From the NCBI GenBank assembly GCA_019695115.1, contig JAIBAP010000038.1, positions 1-56,483 of the forward strand: a stretch of 56,483 nt of DNA, read 5' to 3'. The position numbers and the translations under genes were made by a program. Source of the stretch: Caldilineales bacterium. Lineage in GTDB: Bacteria; Chloroflexota; Anaerolineae; J102. Positions 17,798 through 42,884 of the stretch are shown in pieces. The stretch's first letter is position 1, and every line of letters starts with the position of its first letter. The notes under the pieces are model-generated. The model worked only from the letters and a program-made list of their open reading frames with translations, was not told the DNA's origin and searched no databases.

Positions 17798-18641
17798 CGA
17801 CCTGCCAACGGGCGCGCTTCCCGTCGCCTACCACTTGTACGAGCGCGGGCGCTGGGCGGAGGTAAATGCCGCCATCGTCGAAGAAACCTCGCTCTGTATC
17901 CACGTCAACGGGCAGGAGTTGGCAACCTACCAGTGCTCGCCCCTCGACCAGGAGGCGATGGCGCTGGGCTTTTTGCGTTCGGAAGGATTGATCGCCGGCC
18001 TCGAAGACATCGCCGTGGTCGAGCTTTCGGGCAGGGGGACGTGCGTGGATGTGTGGCTGAAGAAGGAGGTCGAGCTGCCGCAACGCCGGATCAAGACAAC
18101 CGGCTGTGGCGAAGGGGTGACGTTCGATGACCTCAGCAAGGCGCGGGCGCCGTTGAACGACGAGCTCATGGTCGCGCCCGAACGGATCTTCGCCCTGTAC
18201 GAACAGATGAGCAGAAGGATCGCCCTCTATCCTCTCACGCGCGGCATTCATGCTTCGGCGCTGTGCTCGCCCGAGCAGGCGCTGATCGTGGCCGAGGATG
18301 TGGGGCGGCACAACACACTGGACAAGCTGTGGGGCAAGGCCATGCAGCAGGGGATCAGCGTGACCGGCAGGATCATCGTCACCACCGGGCGGATCAGTTC
18401 CGAGATGCTTGGTAAGGCGGCCAAGATGGGCGTCGGCATCATCGCCTCGCGCACCTCGCCCACCAGCCGTTCGACCGGCCTGGCCCGCGCCTGGAATATC
18501 ACGGTGGTGGGCTATCTGCGCCGCGAGAGTATGCGCGTCTATTCGGCGCCGCAGCGACTGTGCGCACCGGGGACGGCAGCGCCACTGTCAGTGACCGTGC
18601 CGCCATCATCCGACCTCGTCGCGTCTGGCGTAGGACCCTGA
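17790..18641 (+). CDS. fdhD: FdhD, formate dehydrogenase sulfurtransferase accessory protein
   Basis: The protein has 283 residues from ATG 17790 (MLNDLPTGALPVAYHL), whose start overlaps the HicB-like gene by eight bases. FdhD transfers sulfur from a cysteine desulfurase to the molybdenum cofactor of formate dehydrogenase. Landmarks are VEETSLCIHVNGQEL, LALGFLRSEGLI-type helix, the loop KTTGCGEG with Cys106, and the strongly conserved AEDVGRHNTLDK and TTGRISSEMLGKAAKMGV. The E. coli CxxC pair is reduced to one cysteine here (CGEG), a variation seen outside enterobacteria. About 35 C-terminal residues beyond the fold have no recognised role. The cyclase gene starts 11 bases downstream. Confidence 0.92.
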   Translation: MLNDLPTGALPVAYHLYERGRWAEVNAAIVEETSLCIHVNGQELATYQCSPLDQEAMALGFLRSEGLIAGLEDIAVVELSGRGTCVDVWLKKEVELPQRRIKTTGCGEGVTFDDLSKARAPLNDELMVAPERIFALYEQMSRRIALYPLTRGIHASALCSPEQALIVAEDVGRHNTLDKLWGKAMQQGISVTGRIIVTTGRISSEMLGKAAKMGVGIIASRTSPTSRSTGLARAWNITVVGYLRRESMRVYSAPQRLCAPGTAAPLSVTVPPSSDLVASGVGP

Positions 18642-18652
18642 GTTTTGCCGCC

Positions 18653-21600
18653 ATGCCTGACCAAATGCGTTGGCTTGTCCCGCACACGATCCTTTACCAC
18701 CACGCCCGCAACCAGCAGCGTGGGCGTTTGCGGGCGGCCTCGATGTTCGTGGACATCTCCGGCTTCACGCAGCTGACCGAGACCCTGATGCAGCATGCCA
18801 AAGACGGAGCCGAGGTGTTGACCGAGGTGCTGAACAGCATCTTCCACCCCATCGTGCAGGAGGTTTACGACCACGGCGGCTTCATCTCCACGTTCGCTGG
18901 CGATGCCTTCACCGCCCTCTTCCCGCTGCGGGAGCCAGAAGCGGTTGTGCACGCCACCCAGACCGCCTTCTTCGTCAGCGAGTTCTTCGCCCGCAATCGG
19001 CTGGTCGAGACCAAATACGGGAGCTTCGAGCTGGGGGCCAAGGTGGGGCTGGGGGTAGGGCGGGTGGAGTGGGGCATCCTCGGTCAGGGGATGCACGCTT
19101 TCTACTTCCGCGGCGAAGCGGTGGATGAGTGTGCTGCCAGCGAACACCACGCCAGCCGCGGCGAGATCGTGGCCAGCCAGATGCTGGTGGACAAGTTGGG
19201 CGGGCAGGCGTCGGCGGTCGCTGTTAGCGGCGGTTTTGCCCGGCTGCTGAGCCTCGATGCCGCCGTTTTGCCGCGCTTGCGCCGGCGGCCCCGGCCGGCG
19301 CGAGGCGCCCTGGCCCCCTTCCTGCTCGACGCTGTCATCGATCTGACGCAGCGGGCCGAATTCCGCACTGTCGCCAGCATCTTCCTCGCCTTCGATGAAC
19401 CGGGCGACGAGAAGGCTCTCGATGCCTTCACCTCAGAGGTGCTCGAACTGGCCCGCCGCTATGGCGGCTACTTCAATAAGATGGATTTTGGCGACAAGGG
19501 CGGGGTGATGTTGCTCTTGTTTGGCGCACCCACATCGTACGAAGACAATCTCGCCCGCGCCGCCAATTTCCTGCTGGCGCTGCGGGGCGAGGGGGAGCGG
19601 GCGGAGGTGAGCTGGCGGGCGGGGCTGACTTTCGGCACCGTCTATGCGGGGATCATGGGCGGTGAAGAACGCTGTGAATACACGGCCATCGGCGACATCG
19701 TCAACCTGTCGGCGCGGCTGGCCATGCACGCCGCCTGGGGCGAGGTCTGGGCCAGCGCCGAAGTGCGGTCGCTCCTGGCCGGCGACTACGACTTCGAAAC
19801 CCAGGGCAGCCATCAGTTCAAGGGCAAGGGCGCGGCGTTGGAGGTCTTTCGTCTGCTCCGCCGCAAGGAAGTGGGCGAGAAACTCTATGCCTCGCCCATG
19901 TTTGGCCGCCAGCACGAGATGTCGGTTCTGCACTCGTTCCTGGCACCAATGCTGGAGCGGGGGCGCTTCGCCGGCCTGATCTACGTCTATGGCGAACCCG
20001 GCATGGGCAAGAGCCGGCTGGTGTATGAGGTCAGACAAGACCTGGCGAGCAGACATGCCCTCGGCTGGGCCTACTGCCCCAGCGAAGGCGTCCTCCGCCA
20101 ATCGCTTAACCCGATCGTCTACTACCTACGCGGCTTCTTTGGCCAGTCCAAAGAGCAAAGCGAGGACGAGAACAAAGCCCGCTTCGGCGCCGCCCTGACC
20201 GGGCTGATCGGCCGGCTGCCGGACAACCCAGAGGGGGCCGAGCTGGGGCGAGAATTGGATCGCACCCGCTCGATGTTGGGCGCGCTGGTCGACCTGCGCT
20301 GGCCCGGCTCGCTCTACGAAACCCTCGAACCCAAACTGCGGTTCGAGAACACGCTCACCGCCCTCGTCAGCCTGATGCAGGCCGAGAGCCGACTGCATCC
20401 GCTGGTGATCGAGATCGACGACGGCCAGGTGATGGACGCCGACACGGCCAACCTGCTGCAACTCCTCACCCGCGAGGCGGCCGATTTTCCCGTCGCCTTC
20501 ATCGTCAGCGCCCGCTACCGCGACGACGGCAGCAAGTTCCGAGTGCAAGTGGATGAAGCGGTGGCGGTGAGCGAGGTTGATCTGAACTATCTGGCCGCCA
20601 ATGACCTGCGTGCTTTTGCCGAGCAGTCGCTGGGCGAAGTCCTGGCCGATGACGTAGTCGATCTGCTGGCCGAAAAAACGAACGGCAACCCCTTCTTCAT
20701 CGAGCAATTGGCGCTCGACCTGCGGGAACGAAAACTGCTGGTTGTCGACCCGGGCGGGAAAGGCCTGACCCTGGCCCCGGCCTACGCCACCGAGGTCCCC
20801 ACCACGATCACGGCCGTGCTGGTGGCCCGGCTCGACCGTCTCTCGGCTGCGATCAAACAGGTGGTGCAGACGGCGGCCGTGTTGGGCCGGGAGTTCGAGC
20901 TGCTGGTGCTGTCGCACATGCTGCGCGGCGACGCCGAAATGAGAACAAAGGTGGCCGCAGCAACCGGACAGGATATTTGGTCGGCGGTGGATGAACTGCG
21001 CTATCTGTTCAAGCACGCCTTGCTGCGCGATTCGGCCTACGACATGCAGTTGCGCGCCCACCTGCGCGGGCTGCACCAGGCCGCCGGCGAAGCCTTCGAG
21101 ACCGTCTATGCGCGCGATCTTGCCAGCCGCTATGTCGACCTGGCCTACCACTTCGAGCAAGCGGGCGTCGTCGACAAAGCCCGGCGCTACCTGCACCAGG
21201 CCGGCGATCAGGCCAAGGCCAACTACCTGAACCAGATGGCGCTTTCGCTCTTCGAGCGGCTGTTGGCACTGCTCGACCCGCACGACCCGGCGCGGGCAGC
21301 TGTCTACGAACAGCGGGGCGAGATCTACGCCACCATCGGCGAGCACGACCTGGCCCTGCAACAGTACAAGGCGGCGCTGGCCAGCCTGAGCGCCAACACC
21401 GGCCTAGCAGTCGATCGCGAGGCGCCTGGGCTTTACCGCAAAGTCGGCCTGGTGTACATGAACAAGGGCGAGTATGCGGTGGCCTTCGAGTGGATGGGCC
21501 GGGCCGAGCGCATAGCGTTGGAAGCTGGCAATACCGAGATGGCTCGCATCCACACCGCCACCGCCGCCGTGCTCTACCGGCAAGGCAAGGCCACCGAGGC

Positions 21601-22573
21601 CCTGAGCCGCTGCCAGATGGGTTTGGAGATCGCCGCCCAACTGAACGAGGCGGCTGAGATCGCCTACGGCCACATGCTGCGCGGCACCATCCACACCGGG
21701 CTGGGCCAGCTCGACGAAGCCATCGCCGACTACGAGCAGAGCCTGGCCCTGAGCCGCAACCTGGGCGATTTGCAGCAACTGACGAAGGCCGACAACAGCC
21801 TCGGCGCCGTCTACTACTACAAGGGCGACTGGGAGCGCGCCATCCATCACTATCGCCAGAGCCTGGAGGTGGCCGAGAAGATCGGTTATGTCGACCAACA
21901 GGCTACCGTGTCCAACAACCTGGGCGAGATCTTCATCATCCAGGGTCGGCTGGCCGAGGCCGCCGCCGCCTTTCAGAGTTGCCTGAATACCTGGCGGCGC
22001 ACTGGTTTTCAGGTGGGGGTGGCGCTCTCGTATTGGAACCTGGCCCAGGTTGCGGTCATGAGCGAGGAATGGCAGGCGGCCCTCGACCACCTGCAACGCA
22101 GCCTGGAAACGCTCGAACGTCTCGGCGCGCGCGATTGGCTGACAGCCGAGGTCTATCGGCTGCTGGCCGAGGTGCACCTGGGGTTGGGCAAACTGGCCGA
22201 GGCCTGGCGCTACGCCGATCAGTCACTCGAAATCGCGACCACACAGGACCTGAAGCTGATCGAAGGCAACGCCCGCCGCGTCCAGGGTCGCCTCCACCGC
22301 GAACACAATCGCTGGCAAGAAGCCGAACAAGCCTTGCTGGCCAGCCTGAAACTGGCCGAAGAACTGGGCATCCGCCACGAGCAAGGGCAGGCGTTGATTG
22401 AGTTGGCGCATCTCTATCGGGCCTGGGAGCAGACCGAAGCAATCGACGCCCACGAAAGCACGGTGGAGGAGATTTTGAACCGCGCCATCACGCTGTTCGA
22501 AGAACTGGACGCGCGCTGGCATCTCGACAGGGCGCGGGCCTTACGCGCAGAAATCAGGGCGATCGGAGGCTGA
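18653..22573 (+). CDS. Soluble-adenylyl-cyclase-like protein: two cyclase domains, AAA/STAND ATPase, TPRs
   Basis: The protein has 1306 residues from ATG 18653. Cyclase domain 1 (about 28-205) keeps the metal Asp in MFVDISGFTQLTE (D34) and GGFISTFAGDAFTALF (D84), but has ECAASEHHA where transition-state Asn/Arg are expected. Cyclase domain 2 (about 238-410) lacks the first Asp (IFLAFDEPG) but has YTAIGDIVNLSARLA with Asn and Arg. The two would complement in one composite site, as in mammalian soluble adenylyl cyclase, which shares this C1-C2-ATPase-TPR order. Walker A GEPGMGKS is at 447-454, Walker B-like LVIEIDDGQ follows, then a GREF winged segment, with TPRs from about 820 to the end. It is cytosolic, and the TPR/ATPase part probably senses a signal. 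The crp gene starts after 9 bases. Confidence 0.88.
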   Translation: MPDQMRWLVPHTILYHHARNQQRGRLRAASMFVDISGFTQLTETLMQHAKDGAEVLTEVLNSIFHPIVQEVYDHGGFISTFAGDAFTALFPLREPEAVVHATQTAFFVSEFFARNRLVETKYGSFELGAKVGLGVGRVEWGILGQGMHAFYFRGEAVDECAASEHHASRGEIVASQMLVDKLGGQASAVAVSGGFARLLSLDAAVLPRLRRRPRPARGALAPFLLDAVIDLTQRAEFRTVASIFLAFDEPGDEKALDAFTSEVLELARRYGGYFNKMDFGDKGGVMLLLFGAPTSYEDNLARAANFLLALRGEGERAEVSWRAGLTFGTVYAGIMGGEERCEYTAIGDIVNLSARLAMHAAWGEVWASAEVRSLLAGDYDFETQGSHQFKGKGAALEVFRLLRRKEVGEKLYASPMFGRQHEMSVLHSFLAPMLERGRFAGLIYVYGEPGMGKSRLVYEVRQDLASRHALGWAYCPSEGVLRQSLNPIVYYLRGFFGQSKEQSEDENKARFGAALTGLIGRLPDNPEGAELGRELDRTRSMLGALVDLRWPGSLYETLEPKLRFENTLTALVSLMQAESRLHPLVIEIDDGQVMDADTANLLQLLTREAADFPVAFIVSARYRDDGSKFRVQVDEAVAVSEVDLNYLAANDLRAFAEQSLGEVLADDVVDLLAEKTNGNPFFIEQLALDLRERKLLVVDPGGKGLTLAPAYATEVPTTITAVLVARLDRLSAAIKQVVQTAAVLGREFELLVLSHMLRGDAEMRTKVAAATGQDIWSAVDELRYLFKHALLRDSAYDMQLRAHLRGLHQAAGEAFETVYARDLASRYVDLAYHFEQAGVVDKARRYLHQAGDQAKANYLNQMALSLFERLLALLDPHDPARAAVYEQRGEIYATIGEHDLALQQYKAALASLSANTGLAVDREAPGLYRKVGLVYMNKGEYAVAFEWMGRAERIALEAGNTEMARIHTATAAVLYRQGKATEALSRCQMGLEIAAQLNEAAEIAYGHMLRGTIHTGLGQLDEAIADYEQSLALSRNLGDLQQLTKADNSLGAVYYYKGDWERAIHHYRQSLEVAEKIGYVDQQATVSNNLGEIFIIQGRLAEAAAAFQSCLNTWRRTGFQVGVALSYWNLAQVAVMSEEWQAALDHLQRSLETLERLGARDWLTAEVYRLLAEVHLGLGKLAEAWRYADQSLEIATTQDLKLIEGNARRVQGRLHREHNRWQEAEQALLASLKLAEELGIRHEQGQALIELAHLYRAWEQTEAIDAHESTVEEILNRAITLFEELDARWHLDRARALRAEIRAIGG

Positions 22574-22582
22574 GAAAGATCA

Positions 22583-23296
22583 ATGTCCGCGCTCGCCATC
22601 TTGCAGCAGACTCCGGGTTTCGCCGATCTGCCCACGCCCGATTTGGTCGATCTGGCAGACAGGATGAGCCAGCGCACTTTTGCACGGGGGATGATCATTT
22701 TCCATAAGGGCAGCATCGGCCAGAGCCTCTATCTGATCGGCTCCGGCCATGTACGGATTTTTCTGCTTAGCGAGACGGGTCGCGAGATTTCGCTCGAAGT
22801 TTTGTCTCGTGGCGATTACTTTGGCGAATTGGCGCTGCTAGACAATCTGCCGCGCTCGGCCGGGGCGCTGGCCATGGAGCGAACGGTGACGTATACCCTG
22901 CAGCGCGAGGATTTCTGGCGGCTGCTCGACGCCCACCCCAGGCTGGCTCTGCCGATGTTGACGCTGATGGGAAAGCGGCTTCGGCAGATGATCGACTATG
23001 CCGAGCATCTGGCCTTTACCGATGTGCAGGGTCGAGTGGCGGCCAAGCTCCTGGAGTTGGCGGAGCGCTTTGGCGAGACGACAGGTGGGGCAAGCGGCGG
23101 AGGCGGAGCGGGCATCGATCTCGTGTTGCCGATGACGCAGGGCGAGCTGGCAACCTGGGTAGCATCCAGCCGCGAGAGCGTGAACAAGGTGTTGGGAGTT
23201 TTCCGGGACCAGCGTTTGATCCGGCTGGACGGGCAGCACATCGCCATCCTCGACCAGCGCGGCCTGCGGCGGTGGCTGGCCAGCGCCAGGGTGTGA
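22583..23296 (+). CDS. Crp/Fnr-family cyclic nucleotide-responsive regulator
   Basis: The protein has 237 residues. The N-terminal cNMP-binding domain has the phosphate-binding cassette GDYFGELALLDNLPRSAG with E82, R91 and S92, the residues that hold cAMP in Crp. A dimer helix follows (about 115-160). The C-terminal Crp-type winged helix reads MTQGELATWVASSRESVNKVL. The ASSRE recognition helix keeps the Arg-Glu pair that reads GTG/CAC half-sites in E. coli Crp. A low-complexity GGASGGGGAG loop lies between the domains. It sits directly after the cyclase gene, so cAMP is its likely ligand. A perfect Crp consensus site overlaps its own stop codon. Confidence 0.92.
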   Translation: MSALAILQQTPGFADLPTPDLVDLADRMSQRTFARGMIIFHKGSIGQSLYLIGSGHVRIFLLSETGREISLEVLSRGDYFGELALLDNLPRSAGALAMERTVTYTLQREDFWRLLDAHPRLALPMLTLMGKRLRQMIDYAEHLAFTDVQGRVAAKLLELAERFGETTGGASGGGGAGIDLVLPMTQGELATWVASSRESVNKVLGVFRDQRLIRLDGQHIAILDQRGLRRWLASARV

Positions 23297-23307
23297 TGAA
23301 GTTCACA
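23292..23307. promoter_or_regulatory. Perfect Crp-type operator TGTGA-N6-TCACA
   Basis: The dyad TGTGA TGAAGT TCACA is identical to the E. coli Crp consensus in both half-sites. It overlaps the stop codon of the crp gene (TGA 23294-23296) and lies 21 bases before a -35-like box. Its centre is about 64 bases upstream of the start point predicted from the -10 box, close to class I Crp spacing. The upstream regulator has the matching recognition helix residues. Confidence 0.75.
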
Positions 23308-23406: not shown

Positions 23407-24573
23407 ATGACAACCGAAGCTGTACAGAGCATCATTGGCCGGGCCGTCACCGAAGCGGCCTTCCGCTCCGCTCTCTTTGCCGATCCCGATCAGGCATTGG
23501 CCGGTTATGCGCTGACCGACGCAGAAAAGGCATCATTGCGAGCGATCGATTTCGAGACGATGGATTCATTTGCGGGCGCGCTGGATGATCGCATCTCCAA
23601 GGCGTTTGCCCTCGGTTCGCTTTTTGGCGCCGACATGGGTGCGGCGGCATTGGGCGGCATGGATGCTGGCAGTTCTGCGGGGGCGGGCCTGGGAGCGGCT
23701 GATCCGGCCGGGTCTGGCGCTACCGGATTCGCGGCCTGGGATCCGGGCAATTCCGGCGACGCCGGATTCGCTGCCTGGGATCCGGGCAATACTGGCGACG
23801 CCGGATTCGCTGCCTGGAGTCCGGATAATGCCGGAGCAGGATTGGGCGCTGACGCAGGCAGCGCCGGCAGCGTAGGCCTGGGCGCTGATGCAGGCAGCGC
23901 CGGCAGTGTCGGCCTGGGCGCCGACGCCGGTAGCGCCGGCAGCATGGGTCTAGGGGCTGATGCAGGCAGCGCCGGCAGCGTGGGCCTGGGCGCCGATGCT
24001 GGCAGCGCTGGCAGCGTGGGCTTGGGCGCCGATGCTGGCAGCGCCGGCAGCGTGGGCTTGGGCGCCGATGCTGGCAGCGCCGGCAGCGTGGGCCTGGGCG
24101 CCGACGCCGGCAGCGCCGGCAGCGTGGGCTTGGGCGCCGACGCCGGCAGCGCCGGCAGCGTGGGCTTGGGTGCCGATGCTGGCAGCGCCGGCAGCGTGGG
24201 CCTGGGCGCTGATGCTGGCAGCGCCGGCAGCGTAGGCCTGGGCGCTGATGCTGGCAGCGCCGGCAGCGTAGGCCTGGGCGCCGATGCCGGCAGTTCTTCA
24301 GTCCCGTTCGCAGATGGTAGCATTGGCATGGGCGCGGATGCGGGCAGTTCGGCTGGTGCGAGCGCCGGGGCGAGTGCAGGCAGTTCGGTCGTCGATGGCA
24401 GCATCGGCATGGGCGCAGATGCTGGTAGTTCGGCTGGTGCAAGCGCTGGAGCGAGTGCAGGCAGTTCTTCAGTCCCGTTCGCAGATGGTAGCATTGGCAT
24501 GGGCGCGGATGCGGGCAGTTCGGCCGGGGCGGGCCAGATCGGCTTTGCCTCCGAGATCATGCGCAACCCCTGA
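23407..24573 (+). CDS. Repeat-rich peptide with Franean1_4349-type RiPP leader-like N-terminus
   Basis: The protein has 388 residues from ATG 23407 with AAAGGAG nine bases upstream. Residues 1-70 look like a leader of the Franean1_4349/NHLP-like RiPP precursor group: IGRAVTEAAFRSALFADPDQAL, then LTDAEKASLRAIDFETM and FAGALDDRISKAF. The rest is low complexity: three 13-residue GFAAWDPGNSGDA units (about 107-145), twelve 12-residue GADAGSAGSVGL units (147-290), then longer GSIGMGADAGSSAGASAG blocks. There is no Cys and no signal peptide. It could be a precursor with repeated core peptides, or a large repetitive surface protein exported through a leader. The next gene encodes a PqqD-like/M50 protease, the type of partner expected for a leader peptide. 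The RiPP assignment is by resemblance only. Confidence 0.7.
   Translation: MTTEAVQSIIGRAVTEAAFRSALFADPDQALAGYALTDAEKASLRAIDFETMDSFAGALDDRISKAFALGSLFGADMGAAALGGMDAGSSAGAGLGAADPAGSGATGFAAWDPGNSGDAGFAAWDPGNTGDAGFAAWSPDNAGAGLGADAGSAGSVGLGADAGSAGSVGLGADAGSAGSMGLGADAGSAGSVGLGADAGSAGSVGLGADAGSAGSVGLGADAGSAGSVGLGADAGSAGSVGLGADAGSAGSVGLGADAGSAGSVGLGADAGSAGSVGLGADAGSAGSVGLGADAGSSSVPFADGSIGMGADAGSSAGASAGASAGSSVVDGSIGMGADAGSSAGASAGASAGSSSVPFADGSIGMGADAGSSAGAGQIGFASEIMRNP
23725..23838 (+). repeat. Three 39-bp repeats (GFAAWDPGNSGDA)
   Basis: Three tandem units starting at 23725, 23764 and 23803 encode 13 residues each with Trp-Asp-Pro or Trp-Ser-Pro. The third drifts into the following 36-bp repeat block. 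Confidence 0.85.
23845..24276 (+). repeat. Twelve 36-bp repeats (GADAGSAGSVGL)
   Basis: Twelve exact-period 36-bp units encode GADAGSAGSVGL, with one Met for Val in unit 3. Unlike the 120-bp TPR repeats, these units carry many synonymous differences (GAT/GAC, GCT/GCC, GTG/GTC/GTA), so the amino-acid sequence appears to be under selection. A thirteenth, altered unit begins at 24277. Confidence 0.93.
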
Positions 24574-24647
24574 AACCACCATCGCGGATGCTGAGCTTAT
24601 CTGCCAAACTGCGCTCTGTGACCGTAGGATAGACAAACTGCTGTTCG

Positions 24648-24686
24648 GGCGCTGGATTGCCGGCAAGGTGCCGGCAATCCAGCGCC
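24648..24686 (+). terminator. 17-bp perfect hairpin between peptide and protease genes
   Basis: GGCGCTGGATTGCCGGC (24648-24664) pairs perfectly with 24670-24686 around the loop AAGGT, followed by TTTGCTGTTG. It sits 74 bases after the peptide gene and 24 bases before the protease start. It may be a partial terminator or mRNA 3' stabiliser, so that more peptide than protease is made. Confidence 0.72.
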
Positions 24687-24710
24687 TTTGCTGTTGCACC
24701 GGAGTCGGAT

Positions 24711-27700
24711 ATGGAGAACTCGACCATGTGGAACCAGATTACCGAAGCCGTCCGGCAGCCGCCGCGCAGGACGGGCTTGTGGGCCTGGCTGGCCGCCAAA
24801 GTAGACCTGGCCCAATACCGGCCGCAGGCGGCGCCTGGGGTGGAGGTCAGCCATTTGCAGGGGCGCGAGGGCGAGTATTATGTGATCAAGAATCCCGCTG
24901 CCAAGACCTATTACCGGCTGAACGACAAGGATTTCTTCCTCTGGCAGCAGATGGATGGCACGAAAAGTGTCAAAGACCTGGTGATCGCCTTTTTCACCGC
25001 CTATGGTTCCTTCGCCTTCCCCCGTGTGGCAACGCTGGTGCAGGGTCTGAAAACAAACCTCCTTCTCAGCGATCAGCCGGCGGGCGTCTATCAAGCAACG
25101 CATCGCCAACTTGAGCAACGCCGCCCCGACCATTGGTTGAACTCACTCTGGCAGGGATTCTTGCAGCGACCCTTCGCCATCGATGGGCTGGATGGGATCA
25201 TCGGCGGGGTCTATCGCCGCGTGGCCTGGCTGTTCTACACCCGTATCGTTCAAATCCTCTTCCTCCTCATCAGCATCCTGGGCCTGGTCGCCTTTGTCCG
25301 CTTGATGAGGGCGGGCGGTCACAACTTGTTCAGAAGCGGTGGGTCGGTGTTGCTTGGGCTACTCAGCCTTCTCATCGCCAATATGGTCGTCATCTTCGTC
25401 CACGAAATGGGTCACGCGCTAACCGTCAAACACTACGGTCGCGAGGTGCGACGGGCCGGGTTTATGATCTACTTTGGCATGCCTGCCTTTTTCGTCGATA
25501 CCACCGACATCTGGATGGAAGCCAAACGCGGTCGTCTGGCCGTCACCTGGGCGGGGCCTTATATCAACCTCGTTTGTAGTGGGTTGGCGGTCATCCTCCT
25601 TACCCTTTGGCCGGCGATGCGAGGCGCCGGTTTCCTTTTCCAGTTCGCTTTCCTGGGCTACCTCATTGTCTTCGTCAACCTCAACCCGCTGCTGCAACTG
25701 GATGGCTACTATCTGCTGATGGATTGGCTGGAAATCCCGCTGCTGCGCTTCAAATCCCTCAGCTTCTTGCGCGAGGGTTTGCCCAAGAAATTTCGTCGCC
25801 CCGACCCCACAGCGCCGGGACGAGCGCGCTTCGCCCTGCCTTCGCTCTCGGCCTTTTCGCGCGAAGAGCGGATTTTCGCTGTTTTCGGGCTGCTTTCGGC
25901 CATTTGGTCGGTCTATGCCATCTATCTGGCCGGCTCCTTCTGGCAGCGGCAACTCGCCAACTCGGTCAACGCCCTCCTTCGGCAAGGTAATGATGCCGGC
26001 CGCTTTGCCGCTGCACTCGGCGGCGTAGCCATCAGCCTGCCCTTTGTCCTCGCCCTGGGCTTTGCGGCTTTCGCTCTGGGCCGCGGCTTGCTGAAATCGC
26101 TGGCGCGCAAGGGGGTCTTTGCCAGCAATACCCGCGTCGCCGTGCTCCTGGCTGCAGGCGCCCTCGGCCTCAGCCTCGCCCCTCGCCGGCTGGCGGCGCC
26201 CATTCTGGTCACAGGTCTGAGCCTGGCCGCCCTGATCGTCGCTGTGATCATGGCCGCTCGCAACATCCGCGTTTATGCCGGGGCGCGCAGGGTCTGGCAT
26301 TTCTGGCTGCTGGGCGGTTTGGCGGCGCTGTTGTTGGCGGTCGAGGCAGCGACGATGGCTGGCTGGCTGGCGCCCGATTTGTTCTGGTTGATCAACCTGG
26401 CCCTCACCGTACTGGCGCTGGCATCGTTGGCCGGGGCGTTGTTCGAGTTCACCGCCCGCGGGCGGACGAGTTTTGGCCCGGCCTGGATTCTGATCGGCCT
26501 CGGCCTGGCCTCGGCAGCGCTTGCCACCCTCCTGAGGTCCGCCGCCCCCGAATTGCTTGTACTCGGCTTGCTCCTGCTGGCCACCGGACTCTTTTTGTAC
26601 GATCTATCCTCGCGACGTCTTCAGCTGACGCTGCCACGACCCGATTTCGCTGCCGATCTCGATGACGAAGTGCGTTTACAGCGGGCGGTCGGTTGGATGA
26701 TGAACGGCATCAACCATGTGGTTGGCGAAATCTCAGGCCCACGAGCCGAAAGACGAGTGCGGGCGCGATTGCAGGGCAATGCCGCCACGGCCGGCTGGCG
26801 CATCGGCATCGATGCTTCAGACACGCGCCCCCCCGCCGATATGACGCTGGCCGAGCAGGGGCGCGAGTCGGCAGAGGCTATGAATGTGCTACTCGAACTG
26901 GTGCAGGCCGAGATCGGCGATAAGCTGACAACCAGGACGCTCCAACATGCCTATGACTTGCTTCCCTGGGAAGAACGCGAGATCGGCGCTGAAGTCCTCT
27001 TTCCCCAGGTCGAGCGGGCGGCGGCGCTCAGCCGCGATTTCAGGGATACGCGCAACGACTACACGGCCCTACTGCGCCAAATGCCACTCTTTGCCAGCAT
27101 GACCGCCCACGAGATCCAACTACTCGCGCGGCGGTTGAAAGCCACGACGCACCCCGCCGGCGAGGTCATCATCCGCCAGGGAGAGACCGGAGATCGCTTC
27201 TACATCATCAAACAAGGTGAGGTGGAGGTCAGCCGGGCGGACGAGCGCGGCGTGACCGAGGTGGTGGCGCGGCTCCACCGCGGCGACTACTTCGGCGAGT
27301 TGGCCCTCCTGGCTGACGCCCCCCGCAATGCCACCTGCCGCGCCCTCATTTCCACACAGACTGTGGCCCTCAGTCGCCGCGAGTTCGAGCTGCTGGTGAA
27401 GAACCGCTTTGCCATGCGCGAAAAGCTGGACAGGTCGATCACCCACGCCGACCTGTTGCGCCGCATCCCCCTGTTCGACGAACTGGATGGGCGGCAAATC
27501 CAGCAGCTCACCGCCGAATTGCATCCACGCCAGCTTGAGGCCGGCGTCGAGTTGATCCGCCAGGGCGAGGAAGGCGACGCCTTCTACATCATCGAGGCCG
27601 GGCGGATGCAGGTGTCGGTCGGCGAGCTGGGCCAGGAGCGCATCGTGCGCGAGTTGGGGCCGGGTGAATATGTGGGCGAGGTGGCCTTGCTGCACAAGGT

Positions 27701-27869
27701 GCCGCGCACGGCCACGGTGCGGGCGCTGACGGCGGGACGGGTGTTGGTGCTGGACAAAGAATCGTTCGACCGTTTCGTTTCCATGCATTTGCAGGCGGGT
27801 CGCATGCTAGAGCGCACAGCCAGCCGCCATCTGGTCGATTCGCGCCGGGCGGCGCTCTCAGCCGCCTGA
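24711..27869 (+). CDS. PqqD-like/M50 membrane metalloprotease fused to two cNMP-binding domains
   Basis: The protein has 1052 residues from ATG 24711 with GGAG upstream. Residues 35-110 resemble the PqqD/RiPP-recognition fold (YYVIKNPAAKTYYRLNDKDFFLWQQMDGTKSV, with breaks, then LVIAFF). A membrane domain follows: HEMGH zinc motif at 231-235, DIWMEAKRGRLAVTWAGPYIN, and the third-ligand motif NLNPLLQLDGYY with Asp331, as in S2P/M50 site-2 proteases and 'putative peptide zinc metalloprotease' proteins. About ten more membrane helices reach residue 650. After a cytosolic linker come two cNMP domains (about 788-895 and 918-1030) with intact cassettes, FGELALLADAPRNAT and VGEVALLHKVPRTAT, both holding the Glu and Arg that bind cyclic nucleotide. 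Likely role: cAMP-gated cleavage or export of the upstream peptide. The domain calls are strong; the role is inference. Confidence 0.85.
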   Translation: MENSTMWNQITEAVRQPPRRTGLWAWLAAKVDLAQYRPQAAPGVEVSHLQGREGEYYVIKNPAAKTYYRLNDKDFFLWQQMDGTKSVKDLVIAFFTAYGSFAFPRVATLVQGLKTNLLLSDQPAGVYQATHRQLEQRRPDHWLNSLWQGFLQRPFAIDGLDGIIGGVYRRVAWLFYTRIVQILFLLISILGLVAFVRLMRAGGHNLFRSGGSVLLGLLSLLIANMVVIFVHEMGHALTVKHYGREVRRAGFMIYFGMPAFFVDTTDIWMEAKRGRLAVTWAGPYINLVCSGLAVILLTLWPAMRGAGFLFQFAFLGYLIVFVNLNPLLQLDGYYLLMDWLEIPLLRFKSLSFLREGLPKKFRRPDPTAPGRARFALPSLSAFSREERIFAVFGLLSAIWSVYAIYLAGSFWQRQLANSVNALLRQGNDAGRFAAALGGVAISLPFVLALGFAAFALGRGLLKSLARKGVFASNTRVAVLLAAGALGLSLAPRRLAAPILVTGLSLAALIVAVIMAARNIRVYAGARRVWHFWLLGGLAALLLAVEAATMAGWLAPDLFWLINLALTVLALASLAGALFEFTARGRTSFGPAWILIGLGLASAALATLLRSAAPELLVLGLLLLATGLFLYDLSSRRLQLTLPRPDFAADLDDEVRLQRAVGWMMNGINHVVGEISGPRAERRVRARLQGNAATAGWRIGIDASDTRPPADMTLAEQGRESAEAMNVLLELVQAEIGDKLTTRTLQHAYDLLPWEEREIGAEVLFPQVERAAALSRDFRDTRNDYTALLRQMPLFASMTAHEIQLLARRLKATTHPAGEVIIRQGETGDRFYIIKQGEVEVSRADERGVTEVVARLHRGDYFGELALLADAPRNATCRALISTQTVALSRREFELLVKNRFAMREKLDRSITHADLLRRIPLFDELDGRQIQQLTAELHPRQLEAGVELIRQGEEGDAFYIIEAGRMQVSVGELGQERIVRELGPGEYVGEVALLHKVPRTATVRALTAGRVLVLDKESFDRFVSMHLQAGRMLERTASRHLVDSRRAALSAA

Positions 27870-28047: not shown

Positions 28048-28260
28048 ATGAACTGCTGGCATTGTGATCGCCCCGCCCACGCCTGTTGCCGTTTCTGCGG
28101 GCGGGCTGTGTGCAAAGAACATACCCAGGTTTTTCCCCACATCGAAGCCATCTACCGCAACGATCAGGGCGCATACAAGGCCCTGGTGGTGGCGAATGCT
28201 GTCTATTGCGGCGCCTGTCAGCCGCGCGAAGACCCTATCGATCTGCCGCCGTTACCCTGA
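28048..28260 (+). CDS. Small zinc-finger protein (B-box/DUF2180-like)
   Basis: The protein has 70 residues from ATG 28048 with a GAGGAGG ribosome site. Cysteine and histidine pairs occur as CWHC, CCRFCGRAVCKEH and a C-terminal CGAC, enough for two zinc sites in a cross-brace as in B-box or DUF2180 proteins. The segment CRFCGRAVCKEH is the characteristic part. Such proteins are small cytosolic binding modules of unknown function in archaea and Chloroflexota. The 223-bp gap downstream holds no recognisable feature. Confidence 0.72.
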   Translation: MNCWHCDRPAHACCRFCGRAVCKEHTQVFPHIEAIYRNDQGAYKALVVANAVYCGACQPREDPIDLPPLP

Positions 28261-42560: not shown

Positions 42561-42729
42561 TTGATCCCGATGAAACCTGCTAATAGCTCAAGAATAGCAG
42601 AAAACGCGGGCGCTGTCAAGCACTTTGCGACAAAAGCGCGCGAAATTCTGGACAAATAGCGCGCGCGGGGAAGTGCGTGTTCCGTCGCTCGCGCACCCCA
42701 GCAGTCCCACAGGATGGCCCGACGAAAAC

Positions 42730-42884
42730 GCCTCACGCTTCACGCTTCACGTTTCACGCCTCACGCTTCACGTTTCACGTTTCACGCTTCACGCTTCACG
42801 CCTCACGCCTCACGCTTCACGCCTCACGCTTCACGTTTCACGCCTCACGCTTTCACGGAACACGGAACACGCAACACGCAACAA
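42730..42884. repeat. Heptanucleotide array, CACGCTT/CACGTTT/CACGCCT type
   Basis: More than twenty 7-base units of CACGYYT run in tandem, passing into CACGGAA and CACGCAA units at the end. This is the longest pure array in the window. It lies between the GT4 gene end and the LysM gene region. Confidence 0.95.

Follow-up and report, generated by a model that had tools for sequence, protein, structure and literature searches.

The window analyzed here, a 56,483-nucleotide stretch of DNA from a Caldilineales bacterium (Chloroflexota), contains a cassette in which the genes for a cyclase-TPR protein, a CRP-family regulator, a leader-bearing precursor with a repetitive tail, a 1052-aa M50 protein and a small zinc-finger protein follow one another in this order. 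All features of this cassette are located on the forward strand and are numbered by their positions in the window.

The repetitive precursor

The precursor gene (23407..24573) codes for 388 aa, with an ATG start codon, a TGA stop codon and a GGAG ribosome-binding site upstream; the predicted protein is devoid of Cys and consists of an Os1348/NHLP-clan leader and a tail of Gly/Ala/Ser/Asp repeats. The leader domain (residues 4-64, 23416..23598) had originally been likened to leaders of the Franean1_4349/NHLP kind, and a profile search of the precursor bore this out: NF038399 (Os1348 family NHLP-clan protein) is matched along its entire length (profile positions 1-63 of 63; 72.5 bits, cut-off 40, E 2.2e-20), and PF14407 (Frankia_peptide) yields 50.0 bits for the whole protein (gathering score 48, E 3.6e-13) and 53.7 bits for the N-terminal part alone. 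The leader assignment is supported because both scores exceed the curated cut-offs; the NHLP proteusin leader profile TIGR03793 gave 12.7 bits where 50.9 are required. AlphaFold predicts that residues 3-73 are helical (pLDDT about 90-97). At the end of the leader lies a conserved R-I-S-K (23590..23601), a putative cleavage region, and the pattern R-x-[ST]-[KM] is the end of most leaders in an alignment of the relatives. PF14407 goes back to ATP-grasp precursor families (Iyer et al. 2009, cited in PMC8939145); the leader is of the same kind as those of the NF038399 and PF14407 families, but here it is followed by a long repeat tail and is not adjoined by an ATP-grasp gene.

The tail is dominated by twelve full 12-aa units, GLGADAGSAGS(V/M) (23839..24270), which read GLGADAGSAGSV, one of them with terminal M instead of V; a thirteenth, partial unit begins at 24271, and TRF delineates the corresponding 36-bp array at 23843-24293 (12.5 copies, score 678). 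TRF and the alignment of the units thus confirm the originally described run of twelve near-invariant repeats without Cys. This array is flanked by two further repeat sets on which the original prediction was silent, namely three 13-aa units GFAAWDPGN(S/T)GDA, i.e. GFAAWDPGNSGDA (23725..23841), and three units GSIGMGADAGSSAGA... with SAGASAGAS spacers (24316..24549; the units begin at 24316, 24397 and 24487). The 12 units comprise 10 distinct DNA sequences but only 2 protein sequences (pS 0.404, pN 0.008, pN/pS 0.019). Only 1 of the 33 nucleotide differences from the consensus is non-synonymous, whereas random placement with the transition share kept equal gave 21.8 on average and no fewer than 11 in any of 5000 trials; the 33 differences are partly non-independent, given that units duplicated after divergence share them, yet the excess is still large. 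Purifying selection at the protein level acts on the 12-aa repeat, as had been proposed from the synonymous differences between units, and neutral drift of the repeat is rejected because of the single non-synonymous change.

No Pfam repeat family was found in the precursor tail, nor was there a match to the pentapeptide repeats of PF00805 anywhere in the precursor. Two candidate identities for the tail were discarded: a collagen-like adhesin profile scored 18.4 bits where 325 are required, and inspection showed a period of 12, not the 9 of RTX repeats. The AlphaFold pLDDT is below 50 almost throughout the tail, which is weak evidence given the lack of alignment depth; because the tail had no aligned relatives, these low values are compatible with a fold. 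The junctions between the 12-aa units show neither a basic nor any other evident cut site.

Control elements and the protease

The first gene of the cassette (18560..22573) encodes a class III nucleotide cyclase with two cyclase domains, an AAA domain and TPR repeats (Pfam Guanylate_cyc, AAA_16 and TPR); the metal residues Asp65 and Asp115 are in the first cyclase domain, and Asn382 and Arg386 are in the second. Cyclase-TPR proteins beside leader-type peptide genes are likewise represented by the TOMM kinase/cyclase (TIGR03903) and the putative peptide-modification cyclase (TIGR04510), but the window protein reached only 180.3 bits against TIGR03903 (cut-off 705.75), and in contrast to TOMM systems the cassette is devoid of azoline enzymes, no YcaO being found in the genome. 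The adjacent gene (22583..23296) encodes a CRP-family regulator (PF00027, PF13545) with the cyclic-nucleotide pocket motif GELALLDNLPRSA and an SRESVNK recognition helix. A pattern scan for TGTGA-N6-TCACA detected the perfect palindrome TGTGATGAAGTTCACA (23292..23307), a putative CRP site, 115 bp upstream of the precursor start. It is the only match in the window with at most one mismatch, and the 6-Mb genome contains three perfect palindromes altogether. A perfect palindrome also precedes the precursor in five related loci (L130, L131, L132, L134 and L176), all of which encode a CRP protein with the RESVNK helix. In related cassettes, it is located 112-502 bp from the leader start (in L132, 162 bp from the leader methionine and 47 bp from the start of the reading frame). 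The perfect palindrome is missing in L133, where the CRP helix is SRGRVN, and in the remaining Os17 loci scanned. All six loci with the palindrome, including the window, carry long repetitive tails; because these loci are related, they do not represent independent events. Between the precursor and protease genes, folding predicts a 19-bp hairpin (24647..24687; -42.9 kcal/mol, z -6.9), a putative terminator or attenuator.

The 1052-aa protein (24711..27869) combines a PqqD/RRE-like domain, an M50 protease and tandem cyclic-nucleotide-binding domains. Residues 45-115 (24843..25055) are modeled as three strands followed by three helices (b-b-b-a-a-a). PF05402 was found in 8 of 42 relatives, a profile search of the PDB retrieved PqqD, TfuB1 and PaaA at E 0.02-0.07, and the PqqD-related ScmD was matched in 8 of 15; each of these matches is weak, yet together with the model they converge on one domain class, pointing to an RRE-like domain. 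Residues 1-143 alone retrieved nothing from the PDB sequences, and the structure search with the whole model bore on the nucleotide-binding part only. Designed beta-trefoils, which the PDB profile search also retrieved, were ascribed to a short motif that recurs and were dismissed as artefactual. The zinc motif HEMGH (residues 231-235, 25401..25415) and the distal Asp331 conform to the HExxH plus distal Asp signature of M50, with H231, E232, H235 and D331 invariant across 42 sequences; PF02163 scored 20.8 bits, below 27.2, and the daptide M50 protease profile NF041824 scored 145.3 bits against 300. The C-terminal tandem domains (27069..27851) give 162.2 bits to PF00027 over two stretches, with the pocket Glu and Arg in place, and match the regulatory subunit of PKA; as in the latter, both pocket motifs, GELALLADAPRNATCRA (862) and GEVALLHKVPRTATVRA (989), are intact, but here they are joined to a protease and not to a kinase inhibitor. 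RiPP-pathway M50 proteases (EpeP and TglG/TmoG, PMC10885120; daptide NF041824) are likewise membrane zinc proteases encoded beside a leader-bearing substrate, but the window protein differs from them by the fusion to RRE-like and tandem cyclic-nucleotide domains. Downstream, a gene for a 70-aa Cys/His-rich zinc-finger-like protein (28048..28260) also adjoins the M50 gene in relatives.

None of the window genes adjoining the precursor encodes a core-modifying enzyme, rSAM_ocin_1 matches in the genome are all below the cut-off, Nif11 leaders have no match in the genome, and no exporter gene was seen adjoining the cassette. Two more Os17 leader genes of the same genome (L060, G000:C74:14071-14208; L061, G000:C55:5999-6160) are without an M50 gene nearby, and the first of these precedes an AAA-TPR protein. 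No leader match was obtained in two other genomes of the genus and no relative was found in the plasmid collection. In one of the two, G001, the zinc-finger gene is kept, and the M50 gene is split between frames and shows similarity only from about residue 328 onward.

Relatives of the cassette

Of the 396 genomes covered by a class-wide survey, 35 contained M50 relatives and 170 contained leaders, and scanning the GTDB genomes yielded 80 M50 loci from Chloroflexota, Actinomycetota, Bacillota and other phyla. An Os17 leader lies within 2.5 kb of the M50 gene in 33 of the 80 loci and a zinc-finger gene within 1.5 kb in 35; all 45 Os17 matches in these loci are within 5 kb of the M50 gene, and 40 of them are within 1.9 kb. 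NF038399 is matched by 27 of 27 precursors and PF14407 by 25 of 27. On this conserved leader, the tails are lineage-specific and range from 0 to 3053 aa; they are Cys-poor and mostly acidic, with repeat periods of 13 aa (L131), 5 aa (L132, L134 and L176) or 6 aa (L160 and L162). The tail of L176 is a pentapeptide-repeat tail (PF00805, 1.3e-22), those of Actinomycetota are acidic, Gly-rich and end in DxDGDG-rich segments, and others consist of only a few residues. In L131, 10 of the 12 units are identical as protein and all 12 are distinct in DNA (pS 0.62). The nearest M50 relative, L130, shares 50 of 67 leader residues and has an unrelated tail. Because the tails of the nearest relatives vary from 3 aa (L133) to 323 aa, a long tail is not needed for the cassette; mapping long, short and absent tails onto the M50 tree requires 10 changes. 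Leader-only proteins of 73-79 aa are found within the same cassette type in G025 and G092. In another family, the leaders adjoin rSAM_ocin_1 C-methyltransferases (622-651 bits), a true RiPP context.

In four genomes from a genus of the same family (L125, 4639-9966, in G013; also L126, L127 and L065 in G017, G011 and G015), Os17-like leaders are followed by tandem Trp repeats, either 3-5 copies of the GPNGPWGWQF type or a 13-aa unit present about 20 times. Their neighbors are genes for a polyprenyl-synthase-like protein, a PDZ histidine kinase and a LuxR-type regulator (seen in L125), an order resembling ComQXPA, which a 2014 census recorded only in Firmicutes (PMC4008528). Os17-like domains also occur inside a 706-aa glycosyltransferase-like protein (L120, 1838-3958) and a 682-aa protein (L121, 1791-3839) and, being parts of larger proteins, are outside any precursor role.

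Interpretation of the cassette

The explanation that we consider best, with confidence somewhat above even, is a cyclic-nucleotide-controlled, leader-directed system for processing repetitive cargo. The cyclase-TPR protein would make a cyclic nucleotide upon some signal, and the CRP-family protein would bind the palindrome and switch the precursor on, the hairpin 3' of the precursor holding the protease level under the precursor level. The membrane protein would then bind the folded helical leader through its RRE-like domain, and its M50 site would cut at or near the conserved R-I-S-K/Ala-Gly-rich segment, with the tandem cyclic-nucleotide domains acting as the gate. The repetitive tail, an acidic, Cys-free polypeptide whose exact unit sequence would matter, would be freed most likely whole. 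We infer leader binding, cleavage, nucleotide gating, export and tail function from sequences and models. The strict conservation across all 12 unit positions favors a specific tail sequence, and the absent cut sites and tailoring enzymes favor a tail that acts as a whole chain. Short-tailed relatives with rSAM C-methyltransferases, which fit an ordinary RiPP, count against this explanation, as do the lack of an exporter gene next to the cassette, the short tails among the nearest relatives and the failure of AlphaFold to model a tail structure. A broader proposal, possible but doubtful, is that the Os1348-type 'leader' serves as a tag for protein sorting in general and that RRE-fused, cyclic-nucleotide-gated M50 proteases process proteins so tagged and release them whatever their length, from a few to about 3000 residues; if so, this would be a protein-sorting pathway separate from RiPP maturation.

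The principal alternative to the gated release of whole cargo, which we regard as unlikely, is a multi-core RiPP or pheromone precursor, with the tail cut after leader removal into separate products, namely about twelve identical 12-mers and the Trp units of 13 aa. The near-invariance of the 12 positions at a pS of 0.40, and likewise at 0.62 in L131, would be expected of such cores, and the precursor resembles graspetide precursors with repeated cores (PMC8939145) in joining a leader to repeated units. Support also comes from G011, G013, G015 and G017, where Os17-like leaders followed by Trp repeats have a polyprenyl-synthase-like gene and one for a histidine kinase as neighbors (in G013 additionally a response regulator), from the RiPP-type paralogue sets with rSAM_ocin_1 in the family, and from an M16 peptidase-like gene, read from sequence, between the precursor and M50 genes of L110. 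However, in contrast to multi-core graspetides, neither a modifying enzyme nor linker cut sites were found here, and the tails of relatives, which include a pentapeptide-repeat protein and proteins of 200-3000 aa, are not core-like. Only under this alternative would each unit be a core peptide, as originally suggested.

It is rather improbable that the tail is a leader-targeted structural protein, either folded as a beta-solenoid or a calcium-bound roll or forming assemblies at the cell surface. Tight packing would be consistent with the strict conservation of the units, the L176 tail matches PF00805, and actinobacterial relatives end in DxDGDG-rich segments; against this, the window tail has no recognizable repeat family or confidently modeled fold and falls far short of the adhesin profile, and its 12-aa period differs from the 5-aa pentapeptide and 9-aa RTX periods. 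The AlphaFold model does not support the solenoid originally envisaged. A neutral minisatellite expansion, with function confined to the leader domain, for example as a scaffold, would agree with the leader-only proteins and the complete change of tails among relatives but is very improbable and largely refuted, the synonymous bias of the unit changes being incompatible with neutrality.

Under the cyclic-nucleotide-controlled processing system, known parts are combined in a manner of which we saw no description in the open literature that we searched; the search, outside the scope of which most subscription journals fall, found no papers on Franean1_4349, Os1348 or a cyclic-nucleotide M50 RiPP protease. 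One cassette unites a predicted enzyme for second-messenger synthesis, a transcription factor and its putative site, a repetitive substrate, and a protease that would bind the leader and has two nucleotide sensors, an unusually complete control circuit around a repetitive precursor. Because these parts share one cassette, the control of leader-peptide processing by cyclic nucleotides can be tested directly. Furthermore, long repeat proteins are often attached to this leader family, which is filed under RiPPs, so that naming such genes small-peptide precursors may mislead.

Elsewhere in the window, tandem repeats of more than 90% identity are located at 1-499 (120-bp unit, 4.2 copies) and 1958-2385 (91-bp unit, 4.7 copies), and arrays of 7-bp units (CCAATCT and ACGCTTC) at 1105-1247 and 42728-42857 lie in or beside reading frames.
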